Shown here: positions 25,253 to 60,717 of the stretch, piece after piece
How positions within the stretch are numbered: position 1 is the stretch's first letter
Layout: each line of letters opens with the position of its first letter
Source: Limnohabitans sp. Rim8
GTDB lineage: Bacteria > Pseudomonadota > Gammaproteobacteria > Burkholderiales > Burkholderiaceae_C
NCBI RefSeq assembly: GCF_945901735.1
Contig: NZ_CAMDLM010000009.1
Span: forward strand, 1 to 64,000
Reading direction: 5' to 3'
Length of the DNA: 64,000 bases
Program-made: the position numbers and the translations under genes
Notes under the pieces: generated by a model
Told to the model about the DNA's origin: nothing
The model's database searches: none
What the model saw: the letters and a program-made list of their open reading frames with translations, nothing else

Positions 25253-26266
25253 TTAGGGGCGTCTCGGTGCGCACGAACCTCCGATGACAAGGTTCCATTC
25301 CAGAATAACGCGTCTCGGTTCACGCCAAGATGGATCCACAATCCGATCTAGCATGAGCTGCACGGCGACCTCTGCGCTGCGGTGATAGTCGTAAAACAGA
25401 GCGGTAACTGGGGGATAAATCAGCTCCAAGGTCTCCTCTGTGCCGATGCCAATGATCGAGAAGTCGCGCGGAACATCCATCCCTTTGTTGCGCACCACGT
25501 GCAGCGCTCCCGACAACATCTGCGTACCCAGAGCTATCAGAGCTGTCGGAGGTAACGCTAACTCAAGCATTCGGGTCATGGTGTCCCGCGATGATTCGAG
25601 CCATGAATCTGGCATGAAAACCAGGCCGGGATCGTATGCCAATCCTGCATCATCCAAAGCCGCGCGATAGCCACGCAACTTTTCGCGTCCCGGCGCGAGG
25701 TTGGCACCCGATACGAAGAGAGCAATACGTCTGTGACCAAGCGTCAGCAGGTAATCCATCGCTTGCCTCGTGCCTGCGGCGTGGTTCATGAGCACACTGT
25801 CGAAATCAGCACCCAAGTCTCTTTCCACGACAACCACTGGAAGAGGTGTCTGACTGAATGGACAGTCCTTCGGATCAGGATATTCGAAGCTGGGAGAAGC
25901 AATGATTCCTTCAAGCCTTCGATTTTCATAGAAGGCGACGAGCTCGCGGTCTCGCACCGGTTTGTCGGACGTTCCAACAAGCAGCGAGTAGCCGGCTTCG
26001 CGGGTCAGGCGCTCCACCTCGCTCAAATGGGCGGCAGGCACCGGATTCGCAAAGTTGGGGAGCATATAGCCAATCGCCTTGCTGCGACCCGTACGCAGAT
26101 GTCGCGCTGTGAAATCAGGTTCATACCCAAGCGCATCAACGGCACATAAAACACGCTTGCGCAGGTCCTCGCTCGAATAACCGCTGTCGTTGAGTACCCG
26201 CGAAACACTGCCGATCGAAACACCGGCGGCGGCAGCGACATCACGCACTGAAATGCGACCGCTCAT
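25253..26266 (-). CDS. LacI-family transcriptional repressor
   Basis: A 337-residue repressor. The N-terminal helix-turn-helix plus hinge reads ISVRDVAAAAGVSIGSVSRVLNDSGYSSEDLRKRVLCAVDALGYEPDFTARHLRTGRSKAIGYMLPNF. A periplasmic-binding-protein-like effector domain follows (about 60-330). It is divergent from a Bug receptor-ligase-lyase operon, with 116 bases between start codons containing two similar CG-centred candidate operators. It most likely represses this operon until the transported compound or a CoA derivative binds. The effector cannot be named from sequence. Confidence 0.93.
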   Translation of the reverse strand: MSGRISVRDVAAAAGVSIGSVSRVLNDSGYSSEDLRKRVLCAVDALGYEPDFTARHLRTGRSKAIGYMLPNFANPVPAAHLSEVERLTREAGYSLLVGTSDKPVRDRELVAFYENRRLEGIIASPSFEYPDPKDCPFSQTPLPVVVVERDLGADFDSVLMNHAAGTRQAMDYLLTLGHRRIALFVSGANLAPGREKLRGYRAALDDAGLAYDPGLVFMPDSWLESSRDTMTRMLELALPPTALIALGTQMLSGALHVVRNKGMDVPRDFSIIGIGTEETLELIYPPVTALFYDYHRSAEVAVQLMLDRIVDPSWREPRRVILEWNLVIGGSCAPRRP

Positions 26267-26277
26267 GGTTTACGAGT

Positions 26278-26293
26278 ATGAAAACGTTCCACA
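26278..26293. promoter_or_regulatory. Candidate LacI-type operator O1
   Basis: ATGAAAACGTTCCACA, centred on CG as is usual for LacI-family sites, lies 12 bases upstream of the repressor start codon. It matches the second site at 26334-26353 when that site is read on the other strand (ATGAAA-CGTT-ACA pattern). Confidence 0.5.
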
Positions 26294-26333
26294 GGATTGC
26301 CTCTTTGACTTGATATGACTAGACTGAATTTCG

Positions 26334-26353
26334 ATGTAAAAACGATTTCATAT
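26334..26353. promoter_or_regulatory. Candidate LacI-type operator O2
   Basis: ATGTAAAAACGATTTCATAT, read on the minus strand as ATGAAATCGTTTTTACAT, resembles O1. It lies 30 bases upstream of the Bug start codon, where a bound repressor would block the operon promoter. A TTGACT at 26305-26310 between the two sites could be its minus-35 element. Confidence 0.5.
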
Positions 26354-26382
26354 TTTCAACTTTTTATCACCAGGAGACAAGC

Positions 26383-27342
26383 ATGATAAGAATCCTCTTT
26401 GCAGCTATCGCCCTCGCGGCTTCCGTGCTGCAACTCGCTCAGGCTCAAGAGTGGCCGAGTCGTCCGGTGACTTTCCTTCAACCCTACGGTCCAGGTACAA
26501 ACCTCGACGCCATCACGCGCTACCTCGCTGGCGTTATGGGGCCCCAGTGGAAGCAGCCGATCGTGGTGGAGCACAAGGCTGGCGCGAATGGGGTGATCGG
26601 CACAGAGCAAGTGGCACGCTCGTCTGGCGATGGCTACACATGGCTCTTCACCGGGCCAGGTCACTTCACCAACGAAGTTCTGATGGGTAAGGTGCCTTTT
26701 GACCAAAAGGACTTCAAGCCCGTAGCGCGGCTCGCAAGCGTGATGCTGGTCCTGGTCGTACCCGCCGATTCGCCCTTCAAGTCAGTGTCAGACATCATCG
26801 ATGCCGCGAAGAAAAGTCCGGGCAAGGTCAGTTATGCCTCGGCTGGAAGCGGCAGCGCTCAACATCTTTCTGCCGCAGCTTTTCAGCACGCGAGTGGCGC
26901 ACAGTTTCTTCACGTACCCTACAAGACGCAAGCTGCCGCTTTGACGGATACTTTGAGCGGTCAGGTCAGCTTCTCATTTTCGGCACTCGCGACTGCAAAG
27001 GCACAACTTGCCTCGGGGCGTATCCGTGCAATTGCCGTGACCGGACCGCGCCGCTCACAGTCGCTCCCCGAACTGCCTACAGTTGCCGAATCGGGTGTGC
27101 CTGGCTACGCGTTCTTCTCATTCAATGCCGTGTTCGTGCCTGCCGCGACGCCTGACGAGGTGATACGCAAGTTCTCTGACGCATTGGGCACAGCGATCCG
27201 CGCGCCTCAATTTGCCGACATGGCCAAGTCTCAGGGCTTTGAGAGCGATTACGCAGACGTACAGGCATGGGGTGCGGCCGTACCTTTAGAGCGAAAGAAA
27301 TGGCAAGACCTGATTCGAGTCAGTGGCGCAAAGAATGAATAA
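26383..27342 (+). CDS. Bug-family (TctC-like) periplasmic solute receptor, ligase/lyase operon
   Basis: A 319-residue secreted receptor with signal peptide ILFAAIALAASVLQLAQAQ. Family motifs are WPSRPVTFLQPYGPGTNLDAITRYLA, VEHKAGANGVIGTEQVARSSGDGYTWLF, VSYASAGSGSAQHLSAAAF and FLHVPYKTQAAALTDTLSGQVSFSF. It should bind a small carboxylic acid for uptake. A CAGGAGA ribosome-binding site precedes the ATG. The stop overlaps the next gene by 8 bases, showing that receptor and ligase are translated together. The first motif carries GPGTNLD where the usual glycine-rich loop reads AGGxxD, so ligand specificity may be unusual. Confidence 0.93.
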   Translation: MIRILFAAIALAASVLQLAQAQEWPSRPVTFLQPYGPGTNLDAITRYLAGVMGPQWKQPIVVEHKAGANGVIGTEQVARSSGDGYTWLFTGPGHFTNEVLMGKVPFDQKDFKPVARLASVMLVLVVPADSPFKSVSDIIDAAKKSPGKVSYASAGSGSAQHLSAAAFQHASGAQFLHVPYKTQAAALTDTLSGQVSFSFSALATAKAQLASGRIRAIAVTGPRRSQSLPELPTVAESGVPGYAFFSFNAVFVPAATPDEVIRKFSDALGTAIRAPQFADMAKSQGFESDYADVQAWGAAVPLERKKWQDLIRVSGAKNE

Positions 27343-28984
27343 GTTGCCTGGCTACGACGCACGCACGTCGACCATAGACCGCGTTCTGCGGGACCGCGGA
27401 CAACAGTGGGGCGACAAGACGTTTCTGAATTGGCTGCCCACGGGCGCGACGATGAGTTACAGCCAACTGGACGAATTGACACTGCGCGTCGGTTCGGGAC
27501 TTGCCGCTGCCGGCGTGGAGGCCGGGAGTCACGTTGGCGTGCTGATGGAAAACTGTCCAGAACAGCTCCTGGCCATCCTTGGGCCCGCGCGCTGCGGCTT
27601 TGTGTCGGTTCCGCTGAATGCCGCCGCGAAAGGGCAGTTATTGGCGTACTTCTTGAACCATGCGGATTGCACGGCGCTCATTGTCGAAGAGTCGCTTTTG
27701 TCGCGCTTCCTGGAGGCGAGCGACCTGTTACCCCGGGTGCATCATGTCTTCGTGGTGCGCCCCGATCGGGGGGAAACCCAGCAAAAAGCCTCACCGATTG
27801 ATGCGGTTGGTGAACATGTGATGCACGAATTTGAAGGTCTGCTGGATGCGACTGCTCAGCTACCGGTTGATGCCCCTGCTTTTAACGACCTGGCCATGCT
27901 GCTCTTCACGTCCGGAACGACCGGACCCTCCAAGGCCATCATGTACACGCACGCGCACTTCATTTACTGGGGTAGCGATGTGGCTTTCCACCACGAGTAC
28001 ACACCGCAAGATATTGCATATGTATTCTTGCCGCTTTTCCACGGCAATGCACTTTTGGGCAGCACGATGGGCTCACTCATGGCTGGCGCGTCCATTGCGC
28101 TCACGCATCGCTTTTCGGTCAGCAAATTCTGGGAACATATCCGCAGCAGTGGTGCCACAGTTTTCAATGGAGTTGGCGCGGTCACGAATTATCTGTGGAA
28201 ACAGGTACCTTCACCGTTGGATCTTGACCATCAGGTCCGGCGCTGCCATCTCGCCCCCGTACCGGGATTTGCGAAGGGTTTTGAGGAGCGTTTCGGCATG
28301 ACGATCATGAGTGCATTCGGCCTGACCGACTATTGCCTCGGCGCTGCCTACAACACCAAAAGCCGACGTGACAAACTCGGCTCATGCGGGCTGCCGCGGG
28401 CAGGCATTGACCTTCGCGTCGTGGACGAGAACGACTTTGACATGGCACCGGGTGAACCCGGAGAGATCGTCATGCGTAACAACAACCCTTGGGGCGCCTC
28501 ACTCGGGTACTACAAGCAGCCTGAGGCGACTGCTGCAAGCCGCCGTAACCTGTGGTTCCATACCGGCGACCGTGGAAGCATTGATGCCGATGGTTACATC
28601 TGGTACACCGACCGCATCAAGGACGCGATTCGTCGACGAGGCGAGAACATCTCGGCCTTTGAAGTAGAAGAGGTGATACGGACTTATCCGGCCATCTCAG
28701 ATGTCGCTGTCTACCCGGTCCGTGCGGAAACGAGCGAAGACGAGGTGGCAGTGACAGTCACACTGAAGCCTGGTGCAAAGGCAAACTTCAGTCACGAGTC
28801 ACTGCTCGAGTATTGCAGTCACAACCTCGCTTACTTTATGGTTCCTCGCTATGTGCAGGTTGCCGAGGAGATGCCCATGACGCTCAGCCAGAAAGTTGAA
28901 AAGTACAAGCTGCGCCGAGAGGCAGAGTCCGACTTGTCTGCACTATGGGATCGCGAACGCGCTGGATTTACCATTGCGCGTTAA
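27335..28984 (+). CDS. Acyl-CoA synthetase of the ANL superfamily (CaiC/crotonobetaine-CoA ligase-like)
   Basis: A 549-residue AMP-forming ligase that activates a carboxylic acid to its CoA thioester. Core motifs are A3 LLFTSGTTGPSKAIMYTHAHF, A5 MSAFGLTDYCLGAAYNT, A7 WFHTGDRGSIDADGYIWYTDRIKDAIRRRGENISAFEVEEVI and the C-terminal catalytic Lys region MTLSQKVEKYKLRREA. The A7 segment (RRRGENIS) is typical of the CaiC-type subgroup. It overlaps the Bug gene by 8 bases and precedes the lyase, so it probably activates the transported acid for cleavage. The start ATG at 27335 is preferred over the upstream GTG. The substrate is unknown. Confidence 0.9.
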   Translation: MNKLPGYDARTSTIDRVLRDRGQQWGDKTFLNWLPTGATMSYSQLDELTLRVGSGLAAAGVEAGSHVGVLMENCPEQLLAILGPARCGFVSVPLNAAAKGQLLAYFLNHADCTALIVEESLLSRFLEASDLLPRVHHVFVVRPDRGETQQKASPIDAVGEHVMHEFEGLLDATAQLPVDAPAFNDLAMLLFTSGTTGPSKAIMYTHAHFIYWGSDVAFHHEYTPQDIAYVFLPLFHGNALLGSTMGSLMAGASIALTHRFSVSKFWEHIRSSGATVFNGVGAVTNYLWKQVPSPLDLDHQVRRCHLAPVPGFAKGFEERFGMTIMSAFGLTDYCLGAAYNTKSRRDKLGSCGLPRAGIDLRVVDENDFDMAPGEPGEIVMRNNNPWGASLGYYKQPEATAASRRNLWFHTGDRGSIDADGYIWYTDRIKDAIRRRGENISAFEVEEVIRTYPAISDVAVYPVRAETSEDEVAVTVTLKPGAKANFSHESLLEYCSHNLAYFMVPRYVQVAEEMPMTLSQKVEKYKLRREAESDLSALWDRERAGFTIAR

Positions 28985-29001
28985 ATGATCAGGAACGCAT
29001 C

Positions 29002-29766
29002 ATGAGAACCAAACCTCAACCCACAACCTCCATTGCGACTTCAGATGCCAATTGCATCATGGTTCGCGGACAAGATTTAGTCGAAGATCTCATCGGAAAG
29101 GTGAGCTTCACGGAAATGTTTCTCTTGCAGCTCACGGGCAAACGACCGCCTGCAGCGCATGTCCGCATCCTTGATGCGGTACTCGTTACGCTGATGGAAC
29201 ACGGCATCACGCCCAGCGTTATCGCAACGCGCCTGATTTATCACTCCGCGCCAGATGCACTGCAAGCTGCCGTTGCTGCAGGACTGCTGGGTGTGGGCAC
29301 CACTTTCATCGGGACCATGGAAGGATGTGCAGGGCTGCTGGAAGAAATGATGACTGCCCCTGAAGGCATGGACGCTCGTGCGCATGCGATTGTCATTCGG
29401 CATCAGCAAGCCGGCAAGGCAGTGCATGGTTTTGGCCATCCGCACCACAAGCCTGACGATCCGCGCACGCCACGCATGCTGGCTGTGGCGAATGGCGAAA
29501 TGATATCGGGGCGCTATATCGAGGCCCTCAAGGTCTTGTCGGCGCAAGTTGATGCGGTGTACGGCAGGCACATCACCATCAATGCGACAGGCGCATCGGC
29601 CGCGCTCTTGGGAGAAATTGGCATTCCCCAGAAGGTGATGCGTGGGGTCGCGGTTGTGAGCCGCTCGGCTGGACTTGTAGGGCACATCCTCGAAGAAAGC
29701 CTCAAGCCGTCAGCAGCGTTCATCTGGGAAACGATTGATGAAGCGATCCCCTACGCTGCGGATTAG
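29002..29766 (+). CDS. Citryl-CoA lyase / citrate synthase-like C-terminal protein
   Basis: A 254-residue protein matching the C-terminal half of citrate synthase and stand-alone citryl-CoA lyases. Visible landmarks are HGITPSVIATRLIYHSAPDALQAAVAAGLLGVGTTFIGTMEGCAGLL (the active-site His region), KAVHGFGHPHHKPDDPRTPRML (second His) and SRSAGLVGHILEES near the end. Such enzymes cleave or form a C-C bond in a 3-hydroxy-3-carboxyacyl-CoA. With the ligase 17 bases upstream, a pathway of uptake, CoA activation and retro-Claisen/aldol cleavage to acetyl-CoA plus an oxoacid is plausible. Full-length citrate synthase is about 430 residues, so this is the short form, not a truncation. Start MRTKPQP has an AGGAA site. 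Confidence 0.82.
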   Translation: MRTKPQPTTSIATSDANCIMVRGQDLVEDLIGKVSFTEMFLLQLTGKRPPAAHVRILDAVLVTLMEHGITPSVIATRLIYHSAPDALQAAVAAGLLGVGTTFIGTMEGCAGLLEEMMTAPEGMDARAHAIVIRHQQAGKAVHGFGHPHHKPDDPRTPRMLAVANGEMISGRYIEALKVLSAQVDAVYGRHITINATGASAALLGEIGIPQKVMRGVAVVSRSAGLVGHILEESLKPSAAFIWETIDEAIPYAAD

Positions 29767-57458: not shown

Positions 57459-58709
57459 ATGGCAATCGTAGAAGTCAAAGTCCCCCAACTGTCCGAGTCC
57501 GTGGCCGAGGCCACCATGCTGCAGTGGAAAAAGAAAGTCGGCGACACCGTGGCCGCCGACGAGATCCTGATCGAGATCGAAACCGACAAGGTCGTGCTCG
57601 AAGTGCCCGCACCTTCAGCAGGTGTTTTGTCGGAAATCCTTCAGGCCGACGGTGCCACGGTGACCGCAGAGCAGCTGATCGCCCGCATCGACACCGATGG
57701 CAAAGTGGCCGCCGCCGCGCCTGCAGCCGCAGCGCCTGCCGCTGCATCGGCCCCGACTGTCGCCGCTGCCCCCGCAGCGGCCAGCACCAGCATGGCCGGT
57801 GTGGCCATGCCCGCTGCCGCGAAGCTGATGGCCGACAATAGCCTGGCCGCTGGATCGGTGCCTGGCACCGGTAAAGACGGCCGAGTGACCAAGGGCGATG
57901 TGCTGGCCGCTGTGGCCGGAGGCGTCAAAACGACTGCTGCCGTGATCCCCACGGGTGTGCCCACCCAGGCTTTGCCTCAGGTGTCTGGACCAGCCGTGGA
58001 TTTGGGTGAGCGCCCAGCGCAGCGCGTGCCGATGACGCGTCTGCGTGCCCGTGTGGCCGAGCGTTTGCTGCAATCGCAATCGACCAACGCTATCCTGACG
58101 ACGTTCAACGAAATCAACATGGCCCCGGTCATGGACATGCGCAAGCGCATGCAAGAGCGTTTTGAGAAGGAACACGGCTGCAAGTTGGGCTTCATGAGCT
58201 TTTTCGTCAAGGCCGCTGTGCACGCCCTCAAAAAGTTCCCCGTGCTCAACGCTTCGGTGGACGGCAACGACATCGTCTACCACGGCTACTTCGACATCGG
58301 CATCGCGGTGGGCTCGCCGCGTGGTTTGGTGGTGCCCATCTTGCGCAACGCCGACCAGATGAGCTTTGCTGAGATCGAAAAGAAGATCGCTGAGTTTGGA
58401 CAAAAAGCCAAAGACGGCAAGCTGGGCATGGAAGAGATGACCGGTGGCACTTTCTCGATCTCGAACGGCGGCACCTTCGGCTCGATGATGTCAACACCCA
58501 TCATCAACCCACCCCAGTCGGCCATTTTGGGTGTGCATGCGACCAAAGACCGCGCCATGGTGGAAAACGGCCAAGTTGTGGTTCGCCCGATGAACTACTT
58601 CGCCATGTCTTACGACCACCGCATCATCGACGGCCGCGAAGCTGTCTTGGGTTTGGTTGCCATGAAAGAAGCGCTGGAAGACCCCGCGCGTTTGTTGTTC
58701 GACATCTAA
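57459..58709 (+). CDS. sucB: 2-oxoglutarate dehydrogenase E2, dihydrolipoamide succinyltransferase
   Basis: A 416-residue E2 with one lipoyl domain (about 1-77; lipoylated Lys in [18 protein letters not shown]), an Ala-rich linker, a subunit-binding domain ([35 protein letters not shown]) and the catalytic domain. The catalytic His-Asp motif is [26 protein letters not shown]. It transfers succinyl groups to coenzyme A. It follows sucA by 91 bases and is followed, unusually, by a lipoprotein gene before lpd. Confidence 0.97.
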
Positions 58710-58738
58710 ATATTGACGACGTATCCAAAGGAAAAAAC

Positions 58739-59278
58739 ATGAAAATTTTGGCAACACTTACTCTTGCTGCTTTACTTTCTGGTTGCTCAACTTATATGCC
58801 TCAGCGGTACAGTGCCTCGGCTGATAATGTTGTTGTAATTAAGGCATTGAATGTGAATGGCGTTAATGTTGGAACTTTCACTACAACGGTGAAAGTTGAT
58901 AGTGCATGTCGAGGTGCTGGGCCTATTGCTCCACCCGACAGTATGAGCTTTGAAGCCTATATACAAAAAGCGTTTGCAGACGAATTGAAGTTGGCAGGCG
59001 TTTTTGATGCTGTAGCACCTAAGGTAACTTTAGCTGGCGTCCTAACCAAAATAGACTTTTCATCTTCAAAAGGGCTGACAGGCGGGGAGTGGAATTTGGC
59101 GCTTGACCTGAAATCTTCCAATGGGAAGTCTATTTCTGCCACAGAAACATATAACTTTAATAGTGGCTTTGGTGCAGATACTGCATGTAAACAGACTGCG
59201 GAGGCTTTTCTGCCAGCCACACAAAATTTGTTGGCTAAATTAATCAAAAATCCCAATTTCAAAGCAATGTTGCAATAA
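58739..59278 (+). CDS. AT-rich putative lipoprotein inserted in the suc operon
   Basis: A 179-residue protein with a lipoprotein signal peptide (ILATLTLAALLSGCSTYMPQ; Cys16 is the lipidation site). The mature part is about 160 residues of mixed strand and helix with two further cysteines (DSACRGAG and DTACKQTAE) that could pair. No enzymatic motif is seen. By eye its codon use is far more AT-rich than every neighbour (TTT, AAT, GTT and AAA are common), which suggests recent acquisition. It lies 29 bases after sucB and 11 bases before lpd on the same strand, so it is carried on the suc operon transcript. Known suc operons have no such gene. Function unknown. Confidence 0.8.
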   Translation: MKILATLTLAALLSGCSTYMPQRYSASADNVVVIKALNVNGVNVGTFTTTVKVDSACRGAGPIAPPDSMSFEAYIQKAFADELKLAGVFDAVAPKVTLAGVLTKIDFSSSKGLTGGEWNLALDLKSSNGKSISATETYNFNSGFGADTACKQTAEAFLPATQNLLAKLIKNPNFKAMLQ

Positions 59279-59289
59279 AGATTTAAATC

Positions 59290-60717
59290 ATGAGCAAACA
59301 ATTCGACGTTGTCGTCATCGGCGGTGGCCCCGGTGGCTACATTGCGGCCATCCGAGCGGCACAACTCGGTTTCCAGGTCGCTTGTATTGACGAGTGGAAA
59401 AACGCAGCCGGTGGCCCAGCGCCCGGCGGCACCTGCACCAACGTGGGCTGCATCCCGTCCAAGGCTTTGCTGCAGTCCAGCGAGCACTTTGACCATGCCA
59501 ACCACCACTTTGCAGACCACGGCATCACGACCAAGGACGTGAAGATGGACGTGGCCAAGATGCTGGCGCGCAAAGATAACGTGGTCAAGCAAAACAACGA
59601 CGGTATTCTTTACCTGCTCAAGAAAAACAAGGTCACCTTCTTCCACGGACGCGGCAGCTTTGCTGGCCAAGCCGAAGGCGGCTACGCCATCAACGTGGCG
59701 GGCAAGACCGAAGAGTCGATCACCGGCAAAAACATCATCATCGCCACCGGCTCCAACGCCCGTGCCTTGTCCGGCACGCCGTTTGACGAAGTCAATGTGC
59801 TGTCCAACGACGGCGCCTTGCGCTTGAGCCATGTGCCCAAAAAGCTGGCCCTGATCGGTTCCGGCGTGATTGGTCTGGAAATGGGCTCGGTCTGGCGCCG
59901 TCTGGGTGCAGAAGTCACCATCCTCGAAGGTCTGCCGACCTTCCTGGGGGCCGTGGACGAGCAGATCGCCAAGGAAGCCAAGAAGGTATTTGACAAACAA
60001 GGCCTGAAGATCGAGCTGGGCGTGAAAGTCGGCGAGATCGTCAACGGCAAAAAAAGCGTGACCGTCAACTACACCAACGCCAAAGGCGAAGCTGTGGTGC
60101 TGGACGCCGACAAGCTGATCATCTCGATCGGCCGCGTGCCCAACACCATCGGTTTGAACCCAGAGGCCGTGGGCTTGCAACTCGACGAGCGCGGTGCGAT
60201 TGTGGTGGACGCGGATTGCAAAACCAACCTGCCCGGTGTCTGGGCGGTGGGTGACGTGGTGCGTGGCCCCATGTTGGCGCACAAAGCCGAAGAGGAAGGC
60301 GTGGCGGTGGCCGAGCGCATCGCGGGCCAACACGGTCATGTCAACTTCAACACCATCCCTTGGGTCATCTACACCAGCCCCGAGATCGCTTGGGTGGGCC
60401 GCACCGAGCAGCAGCTCAAAGCCGATGGCGTGGCCTACAAGGCGGGCTCGTTCCCGTTCTTGGCCAATGGCCGTGCCCGTGCTTTGGGCGACACGACCGG
60501 CATGGTGAAAATGCTGGCCGATGCGACCACCGACGAAATCTTGGGCGTGCACATCGTGGGTCCGCAAGCCAGCGAGTTGATCGCCGAGGCCGTGGTGGCC
60601 ATGGAATTCCGTGCCAGCGCCGAAGACATCGCCCGCATTTGCCACGCGCACCCGTCCTTGAGCGAGTCCACCAAAGAGGCTGCTTTGGCCGTGGACAAAC
60701 GCACGCTGAACTTCTGA
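59290..60717 (+). CDS. lpd: Dihydrolipoamide dehydrogenase (E3), suc operon
   Basis: A 475-residue flavoprotein of normal E3 length, without the lipoyl domain of the PDH-operon copy. It has FAD motif FDVVVIGGGPGGYIAAIRAAQLGFQVACIDE, redox disulfide [25 protein letters not shown] motif LALIGSGVIGLEMGSVWRRLGAEVTILE, the FAD-binding VWAVGDVVRGPMLAHKAEEEG and the C-terminal catalytic ICHAHPSLSESTKEAALAV. It reoxidises SucB lipoyl groups with NAD. It ends the operon, and a terminator follows 60 bases later. Confidence 0.97.
   Translation: MSKQFDVVVIGGGPGGYIAAIRAAQLGFQVACIDEWKNAAGGPAPGGTCTNVGCIPSKALLQSSEHFDHANHHFADHGITTKDVKMDVAKMLARKDNVVKQNNDGILYLLKKNKVTFFHGRGSFAGQAEGGYAINVAGKTEESITGKNIIIATGSNARALSGTPFDEVNVLSNDGALRLSHVPKKLALIGSGVIGLEMGSVWRRLGAEVTILEGLPTFLGAVDEQIAKEAKKVFDKQGLKIELGVKVGEIVNGKKSVTVNYTNAKGEAVVLDADKLIISIGRVPNTIGLNPEAVGLQLDERGAIVVDADCKTNLPGVWAVGDVVRGPMLAHKAEEEGVAVAERIAGQHGHVNFNTIPWVIYTSPEIAWVGRTEQQLKADGVAYKAGSFPFLANGRARALGDTTGMVKMLADATTDEILGVHIVGPQASELIAEAVVAMEFRASAEDIARICHAHPSLSESTKEAALAVDKRTLNF

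Follow-up and report, generated by a model that had tools for sequence, protein, structure and literature searches.

Among described insertion hotspots, the one at rulB receives integron-like elements that enter within the gene by active site-specific integration, as set out in PMC4542609, and integrase-free hotspots between core genes hold unrelated accessory genes at one intergenic position framed by conserved flanking genes. The gap between sucB and lpd in Limnohabitans sp. Rim8 and its relatives resembles rulB in being a defined site that repeatedly receives mobile cargo, and differs from it in having no recombinase. With the integrase-free hotspots it shares both the unrelated contents and the conserved neighbours; in contrast to them, it mostly contains a lone gene, at times a pair, always codirectional with the operon, and the slot lies inside a TCA-cycle operon and loses a local hairpin on capture.

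Two further comparisons concern the gene that occupies the gap. Like the cassettes of sedentary chromosomal integrons, it is a single, apparently promoterless ORF of atypical composition, and two of its homologs are cassettes flanked by attC sites; unlike such cassettes, the copy studied here has no adjoining attC, attI or integrase and sits in a housekeeping operon. Its product resembles outer-membrane lipoproteins of the LptE, CsgG and PelC type in having a lipobox and in its alpha/beta fold, for which Foldseek gave weak matches, whereas a match at the level of sequence is absent and two cysteines are specific to its own family.

A single gene of foreign composition between sucB and lpd

In the window, i.e., the whole stretch of 64,000 nucleotides that was analysed (contig NZ_CAMDLM010000009.1), the genes follow the order acs, sucA, sucB, lipoprotein gene, lpd and zapE. 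The features around the insertion are:

57459..58709, + strand: sucB (dihydrolipoamide succinyltransferase), the upstream flank; native, of normal composition and closest to the same-genus sister L056
58710..58738, + strand: 29-bp leader in front of the inserted gene; it contains a strong Shine-Dalgarno, AAAGGAAAAAAC-ATG, and the GC hairpin of sister genomes is missing here
58739..59278, + strand: foreign AT-rich lipoprotein gene of 179 aa with an ATG start, lipobox LLSGC, Cys16 and conserved Cys57 and Cys150
59279..59289, + strand: 11-bp gap between the lipoprotein gene and lpd, without attC or terminator and with a weak Shine-Dalgarno, AGATTTAAATC
59290..60717, + strand: lpd (dihydrolipoamide dehydrogenase), the downstream flank; native

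The inserted ORF begins 29 bp from the sucB stop and ends 11 bp before the lpd ATG, just as the initial annotation had it when it described a single, tightly spaced gene between the two. Its GC content is 42.0% and its GC3 33.9%, as against a GC3 of 75-80% in the neighbouring acs, sucA, sucB, lpd and zapE. Against the 44 other ORFs of the window (mean GC3 73%), its z scores are -5.7 (GC3) and -5.3 (GC), and its codon adaptation is below that of every other ORF, which bears out the foreign base composition that had been claimed for it. A consensus scan of positions 58400-59500 returned no sigma-70-like promoter. The second half of the leader has a partial likeness to the native lpd leader of relatives, ATCCAAAAGACAAA (P about 0.04-0.06), which is no more than suggestive of a residual native lpd leader 5' of the inserted gene. 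Elsewhere in the window, a block of ORFs at 25253-29685 also has low GC3 (0.59-0.68) and low codon adaptation, and is possibly a second acquired region.

The empty site of the nearest relatives carries a hairpin

The sucB-lpd junction was readable in 81 genomes of the genus, where the gap takes three main forms: it measures 56-61 bp and contains a GC-rich hairpin, it measures 11-19 bp and lacks the hairpin, or it is occupied by a long insert. The hairpin reads GCCCCCT-loop-AGGGGGC, followed in many genomes by a T run, and the gaps that contain it have folding energies of -16 to -19 kcal/mol (z -1.4 in G080 and -2.7 in G007). Its perfect form occurs once per genome, at sucB-lpd only, in the five genomes with a match, on which ground a dispersed element was rejected, and it was not found in the window's own genome. 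This terminator-like structure is kept in the gap of most congeners (e.g., L056) and is missing from one entire subclade.

The nearest relative of the window genome, G080 (the same genome as L056), has an empty site with a 60-bp gap and the hairpin, as does most of its clade, so that the empty site to be looked for in sister strains does exist. In a tree built from sucB and lpd DNA alone, in which many supports are moderate, the window falls among hairpin-bearing relatives and adjoins G080 (support 88), and this nested position implies that the insertion is recent on that tree and came with the loss of the hairpin. G080 is also the best overall match to the flanks of the window, with 87-100% identity in 60-bp bins, a comparison that revealed no clear recombination tract. 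Every genome of the genus with an insert has lost the hairpin. In the window, the lipoprotein gene has replaced the conserved terminator-like hairpin of the sister lineages.

Presence at this site in all relatives with normal composition, which would have told against a foreign insertion, is not what the genus shows: the site is empty in the nearest relatives, 89 congeners have no close homolog, and the single distant one (31% identity, in G050) lies at another genomic place. Composition, the empty site in the nearest relatives and the native flanks together support the proposed foreign insertion into sucAB-lpd.

The sucB-lpd gap as a recurrent slot for single genes

The idea of an isolated and puzzling entry into a stable operon is not supported, since unrelated single genes have been taken up at the sucB-lpd gap repeatedly in both genus and family. 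Inserts are found in 8 of the 81 genomes of the genus and in 8 of 60 from other genera of the bacterial family, all codirectional with the operon. Within the genus they comprise the lipoprotein gene of the window, a DUF2867 gene (G017), a gene whose 261-aa product matches nothing in Pfam (G041), an SMR efflux gene (G100), and DUF4160+DUF2442 in four genomes (G093, G064, G087 and G066), while the other genera hold DUF2867 (twice), SMR (three times, one assigned by Pfam scan and two by eye), a PspC-domain protein (twice) and another AT-rich lipoprotein (once). The DUF4160+DUF2442 genes are closely spaced, like a toxin-antitoxin pair, and occupy three places in the tree (L057, L058, L070 and L072).

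Gaps longer than 250 bp occur at 16 of 141 sucB-lpd junctions, compared with 1 of 103 for lpd-zapE and 0 of 30 for sucA-sucB, the latter being readable only within the genus. Against the pooled neighbouring gaps (1/133) the difference has a Fisher P of 1.4e-4, to be taken as a guide only, because the genomes are non-independent and the four DUF4160 cases may have common ancestry. Unrelated genes are thus found at sucB-lpd more often than at neighbouring gaps, as is expected of an insertion hotspot. On the sucB/lpd tree the inserts stand at several separate places, and the grouping of G041, with its 261-aa content, with the DUF4160+DUF2442-bearing G064 and G066 suggests that in this group one slot content was replaced by another. 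The covariance model described below gave no attC at any slot insert. Insert ends or target repeats common to the inserts were also considered, and rejected on inspection of the junctions, which showed none.

A slot that takes in single genes time and again accounts for the finding better than an isolated intrusion does, and both the slot and the foreign origin of the lipoprotein gene are well supported. A search of open-licence papers found no known sucB-lpd hotspot.

Homologs of the lipoprotein gene and their link to integron cassettes

The closest homologs, with 57-63% identity, come from Thiobacillus, Gallionellales, Hydrogenophilaceae and Rheinheimera, and even the closest, at only about 63%, does not point to a donor of the gene. 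Within the class the family is rare, being found in 8 of 369 genomes with distant members counted. A regular-expression search for attC with strict folding cut-offs missed most sites, and a covariance model built on the four sites of L004 was used instead. In L004, a member of the Hydrogenophilaceae, those four attC sites belong to an array in which a 62% identical homolog occupies the third cassette position, and an intI-like fragment lies before the array on the opposite strand. In L116/L189, an array of eight attC sites, all outside the training set of the model, flanks a 43% identical homolog on both sides. The homologous gene is thus carried as a cassette elsewhere. An integron integrase scores above cut-off in 9 of the 18 homolog-bearing genomes or records, a count of presence that does not imply adjacency to the homolog. 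The other close homologs (Thiobacillus, Rheinheimera), which are most of the closest ones, gave no attC match and resemble ordinary chromosomal genes.

The window copy has none of this context. The covariance model has no match in the whole window, the 3' end of the ORF with its 11 bp to lpd included, in keeping with the earlier remark that no mobile remnants flank the gene; the gene lies in sucAB-lpd instead of an array beside intI, and its own genome has no intI above cut-off. With no attC at the slot or around the other inserts, a direct cassette insertion is conjectural.

Phage and plasmid origins were considered and rejected, the former because no relative was found among viral contigs or phage records, the latter because plasmids hold distant relatives only (27-51%). 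Distant homologs do occur on Arcobacter plasmids: that of the Arcobacter cloacae plasmid pACLO (L047:5947-6498; 33%) lies 3' of a gene annotated as an outer membrane beta-barrel, with a reverse transcriptase-cas1-cas2 cluster a few kb away. On the Citrobacter plasmid pLNU-11 (L046), a group II intron reverse transcriptase lies close to a 51% homolog, as does a sequence resembling attC, GTTAGAAC, at which the covariance model has no match.

Integron remains in the lineage

An integron integrase above cut-off is present in two of 90 congeners: one is G080, sister to the window genome, and the other, G100, carries the SMR insert in the slot. Both integrons adjoin hisF and are decayed, with truncated or broken intI and one to three attC sites (L183:2316-7840 in G080, with a truncated intI and three attC sites; L184:503-2397 in G100). 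Beside hisF in the window genome (L187:7654-7707) there is an 18-codon intI stub, SLKSTRLLNHVRERFRYF versus SLQSTRLLDQVRERVRYM in G080 (72%, E 0.004 in a five-locus search), and no attC. Taken with the decayed integron of G080 at the same place, this stub indicates that the ancestors of the window lineage most likely had a chromosomal integron that later decayed. The two cases of G080 and G100 are too few to relate integrons statistically to slot inserts, and the rarity of integron integrases in the genus counts against a cassette origin.

Origin of the insertion and rival explanations

The account that we consider probable is that of a horizontally acquired, cassette-derived and promoterless gene for an outer-membrane lipoprotein, captured in the sucB-lpd slot and read through from sucAB; the cassette origin of the window copy, which we infer, is plausible and testable. 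A promoterless lipoprotein coding sequence of a family that travels in cassettes would have entered the gap. It may have come in through illegitimate insertion or through the action of IntI, its attC being lost afterwards, or else sucB and lpd may have served for homologous exchange with another lineage. With its capture went the hairpin that stands between sucB and lpd in sister species. Transcripts that start at the sucAB promoter would then read through into the gene, translation would begin from its own strong Shine-Dalgarno, and its product would move to the outer membrane. As lpd starts 11 bp past the stop of the lipoprotein gene and has a poor Shine-Dalgarno, its translation may depend on coupling.

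Alternatively, a relative with the gene in its own sucB-lpd gap may have donated a sucB-gene-lpd fragment, for instance by natural transformation, the contents of the slot being shuffled in this manner. Such exchange fits the recurrence of SMR, DUF2867 and DUF4160+DUF2442 across separate lineages and genera, the high conservation of the flanks and the lack of any remaining attC, and recurring families, SMR and DUF2867 among them, have probably spread by it via these flanks. For the lipoprotein gene itself we regard it as possible yet rather unlikely, because the window flanks hold no clear foreign tract and match the hairpin-bearing G080 best overall, because no genome with the lipoprotein in the slot was found as a donor, and because it does not account for how each gene first got into the slot. 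Insertion of a cassette by IntI directly into a chromosomal secondary site in the window lineage (attG-type insertion) has been described in the literature (Loot et al. 2024, as cited in PMC11023631), and the cassette homologs, the decayed integron of the sister and the intI stub of the genome itself all speak for it; however, the attC of the cassette would be expected between the lipoprotein gene and lpd, where there are just 11 bp and no attC, so that a secondary loss must be assumed, and we find this course improbable.

Far harder to credit is vertical descent from a gene that occupied the slot in the ancestor of the genus and then disappeared from nearly all relatives. The distant homolog in G050 could be its trace, but the gene has a foreign composition, and the nesting of the window among hairpin-bearing relatives would demand many parallel losses together with a regain of the same unique hairpin. 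An assembly or binning artefact might be suspected in a draft genome of 66 contigs, 96% complete and with 1.3% contamination; we consider it scarcely credible, given that native genes flank the insert on both sides within a 118-kb contig and that independent genomes carry other inserts at the same site.

Starting again from the capture of a cassette-derived gene, a bolder and doubtful reading is that the sucB-lpd gap serves as an expression slot, to which lineages with failing chromosomal integrons moved useful cassette genes that thereby escaped a silent array. If true, these genes would have gained constant expression from a core operon, and replacement of the hairpin would also alter the stoichiometry of lpd. 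The locus offers a testable case of single foreign genes joining a core operon without integrase or repeats, and the empty, hairpin-bearing and filled states of the slot in about 140 genomes form a natural series on the exit of cassette genes from integrons and their domestication. The lpd product is a subunit common to several dehydrogenase complexes, and the slot also allows one to ask how an insert 5' of lpd affects its supply.

Predicted location and fold of the lipoprotein

The lipobox, MKILATLTLAALLSGC-S, is as clean as first described (LLSGC), with Ser and no Asp at +2, as in the signals of outer-membrane lipoproteins; the match to LPAM_1 is below cut-off. In lipoproteins the Cys is lipidated and Ser at +2 leads to sorting to the outer membrane. 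Judging from these features and from Cys16, which is nearly invariant across the family, we expect the inserted protein to be exported, to receive its lipid at Cys16 and to end up in the outer membrane. Cys57 and Cys150 are also nearly invariant in the family, consistent with a disulfide between them.

Pfam, NCBIfam and PHROGs gave no family above cut-off for the protein, in line with the absence of a known domain reported at the outset, and there was neither an LptE family among the Pfam matches of 23 family members nor a PDB sequence match to LptE. The AlphaFold model, computed without four plasmid-derived rows, is confident (pLDDT 90.6) and has an alpha/beta fold, for which Foldseek gives weak likeness to LptE, CsgG, PelC and small putative lipoproteins (TM mostly 0.3-0.6, identity 6-16%). 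A part in envelope assembly or maintenance can only be guessed at. In the comparison with LptE-like folds, E values reach down to 2e-4, with TM of about 0.34-0.55 and rmsd of about 4-8 A.
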